This document shows positions 44,844 through 48,679 of a DNA stretch of 64,000 nucleotides, piece after piece; position 1 is the first letter of the stretch; every line of letters begins with the position of its first letter. The DNA is from an uncultured Clostridia bacterium (lineage in GTDB: Bacteria; Bacillota; Clostridia; Christensenellales; Borkfalkiaceae). The stretch lies in contig CANQFA010000002.1 in assembly GCA_947597925.1 (NCBI GenBank), positions 62,001 to 126,000 of the forward strand, given 5' to 3'. The notes under the pieces are model-generated. The model was not told the origin of the DNA. It did not search any database and worked only from the letters and a program-made list of their open reading frames with translations. A program made the translations under genes and the position numbers.

Positions 44844-44869
44844 TGCGCCCCGACATCCGTCGGGGCGCA
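44844..44869 (-). terminator. Terminator for the minus-strand lipoprotein gene
   Basis: Eleven-pair stem (44844-44854 with 44859-44869); its T-rich tail lies on the minus strand (TTTTTATTAAAA). Confidence 0.7.
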
Positions 44870-44898: not shown

Positions 44899-44934
44899 AG
44901 GCCCCGACAGAATTTGTCATCGGGGGTCTTTTTT
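44899..44934 (+). terminator. Terminator for thrS
   Basis: Imperfect stem (44899-44909 with 44915-44929) followed by T6 on the plus strand. The T run overlaps the stop codon of the facing gene. Confidence 0.65.
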
Positions 44935-46603
44935 ACTTTCCGAGGTCGAGGATATAGTCGAGCCCGCCGAAGATCAGCGTCGCCTTGGCCTTTTTGGGCG
45001 CCTCGTAGCCTTGCGCCTTCTCCAGCCTGTCGTTGACCTTCAGGATGAGGCTGTTGTCGAGGGTGACGTTCTGCTCGGTATATTCCCCCTCGGTGGGGTT
45101 ATATTTGATCTTGGTATCGAGCTCCATGGAGACGAGCTTGCCCGCCGTCATGACGACGGTAAATTGGGCGTCCTTCACGGTGTGGTCCACCCCGTTGAAG
45201 TAGTTCTCCACGGTGAGGACGCCCTGCGCGGGATTGCTGTTCAGGATCCCCACGATGCGCTCCATCATCTCCACGACGGCGTCGTCGCTCAGATAGACGG
45301 TATAGGTGTCCGTCGTTCCCTCCGTCTTCTTGCTGAGGCAGTCCGTCTTTTCCGCCGCGACGGCGAAGACCTCCGTCATGAAGTCGAACCGCGTGTCGGC
45401 GGTGACGCCCTCGGCATTCTCATAGGTATTGCTGCCCTTGCGGGAGACGAGATAGGTCCCGAACTCGTCGTCCGTCACGTTGCCGTAGGTGTACTTATAG
45501 GTCTCCTTGCCGTCCGTCTCGTGATGGCTGTGGTATTCGTAGGAATTGTTGAAGTGCGTGAAGCCCGTCTCGTCGGTGCGTTTATAGAGGCGGGATTGAT
45601 AGGTATCCTTGGTCGCCTTCACGTTCCAGCCGGGGTCCATCTCGTTGAGGGCCTCGAGGTCGAGGGAATAGACGGTCTCCTGCTTTACGGCCTTGAGTGC
45701 GCCGTCTATCTTGGAGAGCTCCGCTGCGATCTCCGCCTTGTCGGTGACAAATCCGGTGACGGAGGGGATGGAGACGGCGGCGCTGCTTGTCTTCATCTCA
45801 TAGGAGAGGTCGAGCGTCACATCCGCCGACGATACGGGGATGGAGACGGAGGCATTGAGGGTGTAACCCGTGAGCGCCTTGCCCGTGAGCTCGAATTTGA
45901 AGTCGATGCCCGAGACGGGGTTGGTGAATTGCACGCCCTTGAGGCTGATGCTCGTATCCATCCTGCCGATGAGCCCGCAGATGGTGTTGAGGACGGCGTT
46001 CTCCGAAGAGAGTCTGAGCTTTGCGATATATCCGCTTCCGTCCTTTCCGATCTCCGTGATCTCGTCCGCCGAGAACGACTCCACGAGGGATTGGAAGGGG
46101 AGGTTGATGAGCCGCAGCTCGGTGTCCCGATAGTCGGTGATGACTTTCTTCACGGCGCCCTTGTCATTCATCTTCACGGTGATGCGGGAATCGCCCGAGG
46201 AATAGATGTATTCGGTGGAGTCATAGAGCAGGATACCGCTCGTGACGCGCTTGAAGCGGAGGTCCTCCGTCTCACGGTTATAGCGGTAGTTGCAGGTGTA
46301 GACGGCGTTGGCGTTGGGCGACCGGAGGGCACCCACGTTGATGTTCCCCGAGAGCTTCAGGACGAAGTCATAGTTCTGCTCGGCAGCGGCCGCCTGTGTT
46401 TGAATGGCGGAGACGACGTCTGCCGCCGTCGGCATAATAGACGCGGGAGGCGTGTCGCCCTCTGCGGGCGGTGTGTCATCCTCTGCGGGCGGCGTGGGCG
46501 TATCGGGGGTGGGGGCGGGGTTGCCGCAAGCGCACAGACAGAGGCCGAGGGCCATCGTCAGGCACAGGAGCAGCGCAAAGATCGTGCGAATGGTGTGTTT
46601 CAT
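44933..46603 (-). CDS. Large lipoprotein of unknown function, partner of the membrane XRE protein
   Basis: A 556-residue lipoprotein. The signal ends in LCLCACG, so the lipidated residue is a cysteine near 26. A Pro/Thr-rich spacer with repeated TPPAE-D units leads to a domain rich in beta strands and polar residues, including a His/Asp/Lys patch (HSHHETDGKETYKYTYG). I recognise no family. It starts 13 nt after the stop of the membrane-bound XRE gene, with AAGGAG before ATG 46603, so the two are one operon. It may sense an extracellular signal for the XRE protein; that is inference. Confidence 0.8.
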   Translation of the reverse strand: MKHTIRTIFALLLCLTMALGLCLCACGNPAPTPDTPTPPAEDDTPPAEGDTPPASIMPTAADVVSAIQTQAAAAEQNYDFVLKLSGNINVGALRSPNANAVYTCNYRYNRETEDLRFKRVTSGILLYDSTEYIYSSGDSRITVKMNDKGAVKKVITDYRDTELRLINLPFQSLVESFSADEITEIGKDGSGYIAKLRLSSENAVLNTICGLIGRMDTSISLKGVQFTNPVSGIDFKFELTGKALTGYTLNASVSIPVSSADVTLDLSYEMKTSSAAVSIPSVTGFVTDKAEIAAELSKIDGALKAVKQETVYSLDLEALNEMDPGWNVKATKDTYQSRLYKRTDETGFTHFNNSYEYHSHHETDGKETYKYTYGNVTDDEFGTYLVSRKGSNTYENAEGVTADTRFDFMTEVFAVAAEKTDCLSKKTEGTTDTYTVYLSDDAVVEMMERIVGILNSNPAQGVLTVENYFNGVDHTVKDAQFTVVMTAGKLVSMELDTKIKYNPTEGEYTEQNVTLDNSLILKVNDRLEKAQGYEAPKKAKATLIFGGLDYILDLGK

Positions 46604-46616
46604 ATCATTTCTCCTT

Positions 46617-47501
46617 TCAGATTTGCGAAATTGATTTTTTCATTTCCTTCAGCCTTCCGATCTCGGCAGGGAGGCAGAAGGGGAAGGTGACGACTCCGAC
46701 GACCATTGAGACGAAGAGCCCCACGAAGAAGAGGAACAGGGAGAGGAGCGCCGACAGGATGCACAGGGCGAGCTTTACGGTGAGGAGAAAGATGATCCCG
46801 CCGAGGTCGAGCGTGAAGATGACCCCGGGGAGTCTGAAGGAGCGGCAGAAGAAGAGCAGGAGGTCGAGCGCATAGCTCGTCCAGAAGCACTGCGAGACAA
46901 ACATGAACATCGCGGCGGCGATGCCGATGGAGACGAGGCAGACGGGGTCCTTGGCCACGATCGCGGTAAGGATGCCGGGGACGGCGATCAGCACCGCGAC
47001 GAGGGTGGCGACGACCATGCTGAGGCGGAACTGCTTCTGTTCCTTCTTGTAGGCGGTCTGCCTTCTCTCCGTCTCCTCCTTGTCGAAGCACTCCTTGCAT
47101 ACGATCCTCTGCGCCCGTCCGCGCGTCGCGGGGTACACATGATAGTCCCCGCTTTGCTCGATGGGCTTCTTGCAGGCGTCGCAATACCCTATGATGATGG
47201 TGGGCGTCCCGACAGCCGCCGCGACACTTGCCGCGACAGCAGCTGCCGCCGCGGCCGCGACCTCCTCCGTGGACTCGGCGTGCGCCTCATGCTTCTGCGG
47301 ATCGCCGCCGAAGAATTCATCCGCGCTGATCCCGAAGAGCTCGGTGAGCCGCTGAAGGGTGGCGAAATCGGGCTCTGCGTTCCCGTTTTCCCATTTGGAG
47401 ACAGCCTGCGCCGTCACGTTGAGCTTGGTTCCGAGCTCCGCTTGCGTCCACCCGAGACGCTTTCTGTTGGCGGCAATGACTTTGCCGTATTTTGTTGCCA
47501 T
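46617..47501 (-). CDS. Membrane-anchored XRE regulator with zinc-ribbon-like domain
   Basis: A 294-residue protein of four parts. Residues 1-65 are a complete Cro/C1-type helix-turn-helix (TQAELGTKLNVTAQAVSKWE). An Ala-rich linker (about 80-97) precedes a C-x2-C ... C-x2-C region (CDACKK and CKECF, about 107-140), likely zinc-binding. Then come about five transmembrane helices. AGGAGG precedes ATG 47501. Its promoter is covered by two TAGGT-N6-ACCTA sites. It could move or release its DNA-binding domain in response to the membrane or to the downstream lipoprotein. Confidence 0.85.
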   Translation of the reverse strand: MATKYGKVIAANRKRLGWTQAELGTKLNVTAQAVSKWENGNAEPDFATLQRLTELFGISADEFFGGDPQKHEAHAESTEEVAAAAAAAVAASVAAAVGTPTIIIGYCDACKKPIEQSGDYHVYPATRGRAQRIVCKECFDKEETERRQTAYKKEQKQFRLSMVVATLVAVLIAVPGILTAIVAKDPVCLVSIGIAAAMFMFVSQCFWTSYALDLLLFFCRSFRLPGVIFTLDLGGIIFLLTVKLALCILSALLSLFLFFVGLFVSMVVGVVTFPFCLPAEIGRLKEMKKSISQI

Positions 47502-47650
47502 AAGACTTCCTCCTGCATTTTTTATTTTTGTGAAAATTATATCATGCGGCGGCGGAAAATGCTATGCGTTCCGCTCAACCGTTGGTTGAATGGGTAGAAA
47601 TTTCATTGAATCGAGGCAAACATCCCGCCTCGGCGGAGTTTCCGCATACT

Positions 47651-47717
47651 TAGGTCAAAAGACCTACATACTATAATTATATTAGGTTATTTGACCTATG
47701 TCAAGACTTTTGACCTC
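47651..47717. promoter_or_regulatory. Operator array: two TAGGT-N6-ACCTA palindromes 32 bp apart plus a half-site
   Basis: Sites at 47651-47666 and 47683-47698 share arms TAGGT/ACCTA; 47710-47717 has the half-site TTGACCTC. The second palindrome fills the spacer of the minus-strand promoter and the first covers its start point. Confidence 0.7.
47676..47704 (-). promoter_or_regulatory. Sigma-A promoter for the XRE-membrane/lipoprotein operon
   Basis: Minus strand TTGACA (47704-47699), 17-bp spacer, TATAAT (47681-47676); leader about 165 nt, containing a TCAACC-GTT-GGTTGA dyad (47574-47588) and no gene. Confidence 0.85.
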
Positions 47718-47737
47718 AAAACATGTAAAATTTCAAT

Positions 47738-47935
47738 ATGCCTTATGTGGAAGTGATTCGCCAACTGATGGACGAGCATGAACTCAGCCAAGAGGGGCTT
47801 GCAAAGATCCTGGGGGTCAATCAAACGACCGTGAGCCAATGGTTGCTCGGGAGGAAGAAGCCGGGGTACGACAGTATCCGCCTGCTCTATGAGAAATTCG
47901 GTGTCTTGCCGAACAGCCTGTTCGGGATCGACTGA
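47738..47935 (+). CDS. 65-residue XRE/Cro-type HTH protein
   Basis: Little more than a helix-turn-helix: MPYVEVIRQLMDEHELSQEGLAKILGVNQTTVSQWLLGR, then a C-terminal helix and GVLPNSLFGID. It is divergent from the XRE-membrane gene across the operator array, the layout of an autoregulated repressor. There is no Shine-Dalgarno; TAAAAT (47726-47731) ends 6 nt before the ATG, as in leaderless repressor transcripts. Confidence 0.85.
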   Translation: MPYVEVIRQLMDEHELSQEGLAKILGVNQTTVSQWLLGRKKPGYDSIRLLYEKFGVLPNSLFGID

Positions 47936-47996
47936 CGGGCCTTTGCGCGCAGCGGAAAATTTTTGCAAAAATTGCCTCTTTTGCGGCGGAAAATCG

Positions 47997-48025
47997 TTGA
48001 CAAAGCCCGAAAAATCTGCTATTCT
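47997..48025 (+). promoter_or_regulatory. Sigma-A promoter for infC-rpmI-rplT
   Basis: TTGACA (47997-48002), 17-bp spacer, TATTCT (48020-48025). Confidence 0.82.
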
Positions 48026-48032
48026 ATTTTGG

Positions 48033-48157
48033 TAAAGCAGAGGTCAACCCTTCTCCCCGCATCGGGCACGCGTCCGACGGGTCGACATTCTTTCGGCATC
48101 AGGCGCCTTTGCGCGCTCTTTCCGACGGGTTGCTCTCTGCAACCCGTCTTATTTTTT
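48033..48157 (+). promoter_or_regulatory. L20-type leader with transcription terminator before infC
   Basis: The leader contains GACGGGTT twice in essence: CCGACGGGTCG at 48073-48083 and CCGACGGGTTGC at 48122-48133. The second forms a 10-pair terminator (48124-48133 with 48139-48148, then TTATTTTTT). The first copy can pair with the terminator's 3' arm instead. This fits the ribosomal-protein-L20 autoregulated leader known upstream of infC in Bacillota. Confidence 0.75.
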
Positions 48158-48166
48158 CGGAGGCTT

Positions 48167-48679
<513 letters not shown>

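Follow-up and report, generated by a model that had tools for sequence, protein, structure and literature searches.

A family of membrane-embedded XRE regulators with exchangeable lipoprotein partners in uncultured Clostridia: a candidate two-gene regulon

A gene pair in an uncultured clostridial genome appears to represent a membrane-embedded one-component regulator with a dedicated two-gene regulon, namely itself and one exchangeable surface lipoprotein. Comparing sequences within the genus, the family and the class, we rate this reading somewhat better than even. The regulator is perhaps an activator; its signal, the direction of its control and its contact with the lipoprotein are matters that we infer. 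The window, to which all coordinates refer, is a stretch of 64,000 nucleotides from a source genome of 1.6 Mb that is 94.9% complete.

Results

Domain structure of the regulator

The regulator gene (46617–47501, minus strand) encodes 294 amino acids, comprising an XRE domain (residues 1–65), an alanine-rich linker, a CxxC-x24-CxxC ribbon (residues 105–140) and a membrane domain (residues 160–281). Pfam HTH_3 matches residues 9–63 with an E-value of 2.8e-15 and 56.5 bits against a cut-off of 23, which lies above the gathering score and makes the protein a member of the XRE (Cro/C1) HTH family. The cysteines of both pairs (C107/C110 and C135/C138) are invariant in 20/20 rows of the family alignment. 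Strands are predicted for the ribbon region with a pLDDT of about 92, and 3 of 20 members match Zn_ribbon_6, weakly. The AlphaFold2 model of the regulator has a mean pLDDT of 84. Taken together with family hydropathy, it gives hydrophobic helices at about 161–183 and 187–206, a short amphipathic stretch at 209–220 and a 45-residue hydrophobic run at 236–281; on this reading there would be about four membrane helices, with very short loops between them. The original prediction of an XRE N-terminus, two CxxC knuckles and membrane helices on one protein therefore agrees with the HTH_3 match, the invariant cysteines and the hydrophobic C-terminal half. It had counted about five helices; multiple helices are indeed present, and their number is nearer four by model and hydropathy.

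Throughout the family, the XRE domain, the CxxC/CxxC ribbon and the membrane domain are each kept in a single copy, and in the family alignment the FW/P/IF/G/K/P residues of the membrane domain are invariant. No Pfam or NCBIfam model for the membrane domain is common to most members, any one model matching at most 3 of 20 at E ≤ 0.01, and a sequence search of this domain against solved structures gave nothing below E 0.7. With a DNA-binding domain and hydrophobic helices on one chain, the protein has the structure by which a transmembrane transcription regulator (TTR) is recognized; that it acts on transcription from the membrane is predicted from the conservation of its operator.

The partner lipoprotein and its pairing with the regulator

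The partner lipoprotein gene (44933–46603, minus strand) is co-directional with the regulator gene and starts 13 bases past its stop codon. The product has 556 amino acids, with a lipobox-like LCAC at residues 23–26 and a type A head domain at residues 66–540. As had been proposed, it is a large lipoprotein of no known family (best Pfam E 0.13, best NCBIfam E 0.97); a sequence search against solved structures again yielded nothing below E 0.7, and an AlphaFold2 model built from six sequences was unusably poor (mean pLDDT 44.8). Terminator-like hairpins are found at 44844–44869 (both strands), between the lipoprotein gene and thrS, and at 48124–48148, ahead of infC, both gene names being read from translations. 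Rfam detected no RNA family in 46500–48250.

Within the genus, the profile of the ribbon and membrane domain matches 27 of 103 genomes. The type A lipoprotein occurs in 12 genus genomes, and the membrane domain is present in 9 of those 12 versus 18 of the 91 others (Fisher p 2e-4, genome kinship ignored). These counts follow the removal of signal-peptide matches: five of 17 genomes and an extra stretch in G003 were dropped from the type A search (model positions 1–94, at most 24.5 bits), and 34 of 47 genomes from a second lipoprotein search (positions 1–109, at most 34.7 bits). A lipoprotein adjoins the regulator in 17 of the 27 genomes with a membrane domain, type A in 6 and type B or MBG-repeat in 11; of these 11, two are cut by a contig end and one (G019) has another lipoprotein in between. 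The partner is unlinked in five more (G009, G054, G061, G093 and G008), and in the last five (G070, G023, G014, G085 and G063) no partner lipoprotein was found.

We also assembled a wider set of 72 loci, 66 of which entered the operator count given below and 68 the lipoprotein count; the window locus is not among them, and at least 20 come from genomes already in the genus set. A lipoprotein start within 150 bases downstream was found by one script at 40/68 of these loci versus 4/431 control ORFs, a control rate that is lowered by the inclusion of possibly non-genic frames. When the 28 misses were reread by eye, a step applied to the regulator loci only and not to the controls, six more lipoproteins (L229, L234, L244, L250, L262 and L274) came to light, for a total of 46/68; L262 and L274 have a type B head and no readable lipobox. 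At 22 of the 68 loci no lipoprotein lies directly downstream even after this reading. L235 and L277, where a type B protein is encoded ahead of the regulator, were left out of the pairing count. Regulator–lipoprotein adjacency is above background and is not rare among homologues, so the pairing originally proposed for the window holds more widely.

Several type B regulator loci (among L047, L048, L051, L052 and L056) have dehydrogenase-like and undecaprenyl phosphate translocase-like neighbors, families that were checked for L051 only. In a genome without the membrane regulator, a 208-residue protein with a zinc ribbon and a bacterial PH domain is encoded directly before a type B lipoprotein (L189:211–837). 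In G098 (L056:3981–4449) an XRE domain directly abuts the end of a type B lipoprotein match, through either a deletion or an assembly fault.

The membrane domain is present in 97 of 398 family genomes and 13 of 18 genera at E ≤ 1e-6. In a class-wide sample, 3 of 391 genomes had it at E ≤ 1e-10, all of them from Borkfalkiaceae. Distant matches with 25–32% identity fall in records named Acholeplasmatales, Erysipelotrichaceae, Bacilli or Mollicutes. Same-genus relatives bear isolate names of the form Lapin-... (rabbit, judging by the name), and many more distant loci have herbivore-gut sample names.

Exchange of lipoprotein heads

We collected 52 lipoproteins, of which 21 have a type A head, 18 a type B head and 9 DUF5050, the type A and B classes being derived from iterated profile searches within this same set; the remaining four are truncated, by a contig end or by masked sequence. 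MBG or Listeria-Bacteroides repeats are present in several of the lipoproteins. Among those added by eye, L229 and L234 are DUF5050 proteins and L244 has BspA-type leucine-rich repeats. When the type A and type B profiles, both shallow, were compared, only residues 1–36, the signal peptide, aligned. At least three head kinds, unalike in sequence, seem to be carried on one conserved regulator–operator chassis.

Among the labeled rows, the three main kinds change at least 13 times on a tree of 72 regulator membrane domains, a quick tree in which 22 of 69 inner branches are drawn open. Six loci had been labeled "none" on this tree though a lipoprotein was found upstream or downstream, and with three of these labels corrected the count becomes 14. 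Head kinds also cluster along the tree: in a four-state test, 0 of 200 label shuffles gave as low a count, so head exchange is not free. The regulator chassis appears to be stable while the lipoprotein head changes within such limits.

A candidate composite operator at a near-fixed distance from the -10

The candidate operator of the regulator is a composite element, TTCAA…CAAC-N5-GTTGA (47575–47610, minus strand), made up of a perfect palindrome, TCAACCAACGGTTGA, at 47575–47589 and a left half-site, TTCAAT...TTCTA, at 47595–47610. The first base of the putative P2 -10 hexamer TATAAT (47536–47541, minus strand) is 40.5 bp from the palindrome center, and the best -35 of P2 has 3 mismatches. An alignment of ortholog intergenic regions has two conserved blocks, one containing the TAGGT palindromes described below and the other near the XRE start. 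On the gene strand this second block reads TTCAA..AAATTTCTA....TCAACC...GGTTG, and it recurs in other neighborhoods upstream of XRE-ribbon-membrane genes that are about 40% identical.

A strict form of the operator pattern matched 16 times in 101 genus genomes, and in all cases (16/16) an XRE-ribbon-membrane gene begins no more than about 130 bases downstream; the reversed pattern, used as a control, had no match in the 101 genomes. Of 21 genus promoters, 17 have 40.5 bp and two have 39.5 bp between the palindrome center and the first base of TATAAT; G048 and G014 lack this spacing. Those 21 promoters represent 20 of the 27 membrane-domain genomes plus G098, leaving out G003 (no HTH), G019, G022, G023, G041, G062 and G070. 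In the wider set, an operator was found at 39.5–41.5 bp in 48 of 66 upstream regions, compared with 0.12 expected from shuffles (approximate dinucleotide shuffles, as in our other sequence shuffles), under a rule that tolerates one mismatch at most in each of two parts, the 8 core bases and TATAAT; 36 of the 66 had zero core mismatches and 18 had no operator by the same rule. The site profile consists of a strong palindrome, CAAC-N5-GTTG, with a weaker copy 20 bp upstream.

The -35 elements of these own promoters have at least 3 mismatches in 32/48 and at most 2 in 16/48, where random expectation is about 85% and 15%; because of this excess of better matches, we describe the own-promoter -35 as weak rather than absent. 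The element at 47575–47610 is predicted to be the XRE protein's own operator. A regulator with a dedicated operator at its own promoter had been expected from the start, and the 16/16 strict matches and the near-fixed spacing at 48/66 loci support this for the TTCAAC-type element.

The TAGGT palindromes and the small HTH protein

The original prediction had assigned this role to a different element. Further upstream is a putative promoter, P1, with the form TTGACA-17-TATAAT (47676–47704, minus strand; -35 at 47699–47704, -10 at 47676–47681), a 12/12 match to the sigma-70-type consensus. Its 17-bp spacer is filled by a TAGGT-N6-ACCTA palindrome, O2 (47683–47698). A second copy, O1 (47651–47666), is just downstream of the expected P1 start, and a degenerate third, O3 (47702–47717), is near the start of a small HTH gene (47738–47935, plus strand, 65 amino acids) that diverges from the regulator gene. 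O1 and O2, 32 bp apart, are the only two exact copies in the window, versus 0.01 expected in shuffles. The filled spacer, the second copy 32 bp off and the divergent 65-residue HTH gene had thus all been described correctly. The palindromes had also been taken for the XRE protein's own array, and this assignment is not supported.

The location of the palindromes, within a consensus promoter aimed at the XRE gene, does speak for binding by the XRE-membrane protein. However, with at most one mismatch the palindrome occurs in 101 genomes only at five loci, all with the small HTH gene, and at a single isolated position in G072, and XRE homologues elsewhere carry the TTCAAC element instead. The regulator, the lipoprotein, the small HTH gene, P1 and the palindromes are conserved together in four other genus genomes. 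At E ≤ 1e-12, 19 of 103 genomes contain a homologue of the small HTH protein, and 14 of these homologues lie outside a window-type locus. Of the eight among these 14 that were fetched, seven show a TTGACW-17-TATAAT-like promoter that is divergent, with one or two -10 mismatches in two cases (the L037 row, which has a wrong start, was left out of this count). In the seven spacers there is an inverted repeat of the AGGTC or AAGTC type, which is clear in L283, L284, L286, L288 and L289 and imperfect in L287 and L290; L285 has no palindrome. Because the palindrome tracks the small HTH gene and related repeats recur at its homologues, the array most likely belongs to the small HTH protein, with O1 and O2 as its probable operators, and we consider recognition by the XRE protein very improbable. 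The 65-residue protein is likely a repressor of P1 and of itself.

This small HTH family resembles a portable cassette, in which the HTH gene and its divergent repeat-bearing promoter stand before unrelated genes (L283, L284 and L286–L290), some of them encoding small membrane proteins.

Operator sites at unlinked partners, and natural losses

The exact sequence TCAAC-N5-GTTGA was found at 48 sites in 18 of the 20 genomes listed. Twelve are at promoters, 8 of the regulator family and 4 of partner lipoproteins. Another 31 are all inside an ORF of at least 100 amino acids (mechanically called, so that some may not be genes), and none of these has a TATAAT 20–75 bp away on either strand. The last five were read by eye: L194–L197 are inside genes, and L193, in a genome without the regulator (G102), is at a gene boundary with no visible promoter.

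A zero-mismatch core lies upstream of the promoter of the unlinked partner lipoprotein in G009, G054 and G061 (type A) and in G093 and G008 (DUF5050); such a core is present in 101 of 5000 random 330-base pieces. It was the operator search that picked out the two unlinked DUF5050 lipoproteins. The -35 is perfect in four of these five promoters, and the operator, read by eye, is reversed in orientation at the G009 and G054 lipoprotein genes.

Three genomes (G102, G012 and G045) have a type A lipoprotein and no membrane domain. None has a zero-mismatch core before the lipoprotein, with a single one-mismatch match in G045, and the genes are instead preceded by ATGGTTG-N4-YAACCAT palindromes. We noted these palindromes at type A lipoprotein genes without the membrane regulator at L118, L119 and L122; at L118 a different small HTH gene diverges from the lipoprotein gene.

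In G003 the regulator has lost its HTH. Its ribbon and invariant membrane residues persist, as does the lipoprotein, and no operator core lies upstream even when one mismatch is allowed. In this single case, HTH and operator seem to have been lost together while the membrane part and lipoprotein stayed without DNA binding, which would mean that DNA binding is not always needed.

Discussion

Under the mechanism that we propose, XRE dimers would bind the two palindromes, which should face the same side of the DNA since they are 20 bp apart, and would act on the promoter as activators from about -52. The membrane domain would sense the condition of either the surface lipoprotein or the envelope. 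A regulator with almost no outside loops is poorly suited to sense the outside by itself, and the lipoprotein found next to it at most loci would be the obvious outside part, reporting on itself so that its own synthesis is adjusted. The exchangeable head would set what is sensed or bound, and exchange of heads is as expected in that case. In the window's branch of the genus there may be a second, separate upstream layer, with P1 held by the 65-residue HTH protein through O1–O3. Activation of its own promoter is suggested by an operator that lies upstream of the core promoter at a near-fixed distance, combined with a weak own -35. A fuller statement, that this is a modular surface-control system of uncultured gut Clostridia in which an XRE regulator measures its own exchangeable lipoprotein through its membrane domain and activates or tethers its gene, is one that we offer tentatively and regard as rather doubtful.

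Against the reading that we favor stand the 5 of 27 genus genomes without a partner lipoprotein, the 22 of 68 wider loci with none directly downstream, the 18 of 66 upstream regions and 2 of 21 genus promoters that do not follow the operator rule, the persistence of membrane domain and lipoprotein in G003, and the clustering of head kinds. The perfect -35 at four of five trans lipoprotein promoters counts against an activator, which would not need it, and leaves room for autorepression of a machine or for tethering. In the former case, the ribbon-membrane protein and the lipoprotein would form an envelope machine for transport, assembly or adhesion, with the XRE domain merely limiting its amount and no outside signal involved. 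We think this unlikely. It would account for G003, where the ribbon-membrane protein, its invariant membrane residues intact, and the lipoprotein persist without an HTH, for the restriction of promoter-linked sites to the regulator gene itself and the lipoprotein, and for trans promoters whose consensus -35 does not look activator-dependent. It sits poorly with an operator placed upstream of the core promoter at a near-fixed distance, not over it, a placement unusual for a repressor, and with the weak -35 of most own promoters.

Improbable in our estimation is a protein that is not mainly a transcription factor and that holds the lipoprotein gene at the membrane, coupling transcription, translation and export. 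Such a tether would suit a membrane-embedded binder whose promoter sites are at genes for membrane or exported proteins, precede both weak and strong promoters and are reversed at the G009 and G054 lipoprotein genes, but at own promoters the operator keeps a near-invariant 40.5 bp from the -10, which speaks for contact with RNA polymerase. Since XRE and lipoprotein genes are both abundant, and XRE matches are many across genomes, a common XRE gene might merely happen to adjoin a lipoprotein gene, by chance or as an annotation artefact. This is hardly credible, being contradicted by the pairing (40/68 versus 4/431), by the operator (48/66 versus 0.12) and by the trans operators in five genomes.

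The membrane-embedded regulator with its own gene and one lipoprotein gene as targets, which we favor, would be a compact natural test case, with one regulator, one operator near-fixed from the -10 and one partner gene. The family itself supplies natural variants (HTH lost, gene unlinked, head changed), and it offers a handle on the large surface lipoproteins of gut bacteria. The operator has predictive use for partner genes, having led to the two unlinked DUF5050 lipoproteins.

Comparison with known systems

Cro/cI-type XRE repressors (P22 c2, 434, C.Esp1396I, ImmR) have the HTH_3 fold in common with the regulator, and they are soluble. A Foldseek search gave 446 matches, none at E ≤ 0.001; the 50 of 446 listed are mostly HTH proteins with about 56–66 aligned columns, and no match to the membrane part is among them. 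MqsA and the CxxCG_CxxCG_HTH antitoxins likewise have CxxC pairs and an HTH on one chain and match weakly, far below cut-off. The domain order of MqsA is the reverse of that found here, and the regulator differs further in having a membrane domain and no adjoining toxin gene. We rejected an MqsA-type antitoxin as a candidate identity (21.1 bits against a cut-off of 30, residues 6–53 only, with a lipoprotein and not a toxin as partner). RodZ is similar in combining an XRE-like domain with a membrane helix, but it has a single helix and a cytoskeletal role.

Membrane-bound one-component regulators as such are already known. TTRs of the ToxR and CadC type have DNA-binding and membrane parts on one chain, as the regulator does, and TTRs with HTH domains, and some with at least two membrane regions, have been reported (PMC10269533, Demey et al. 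2023). How transmembrane regulators act on their targets from the membrane is described there as poorly understood, and the words XRE and lipoprotein were not found in the main text of that article. In the open-licence PubMed Central literature we found no account of a family that combines an XRE-ribbon-multipass protein with an exchanged lipoprotein partner, and it is this form that we have not found described. ToxR and CadC have winged helices, and their large periplasmic sensor is part of the same polypeptide, whereas the regulator described here has an XRE domain, a CxxC ribbon, several helices and no outside domain, together with a separate, exchangeable lipoprotein.
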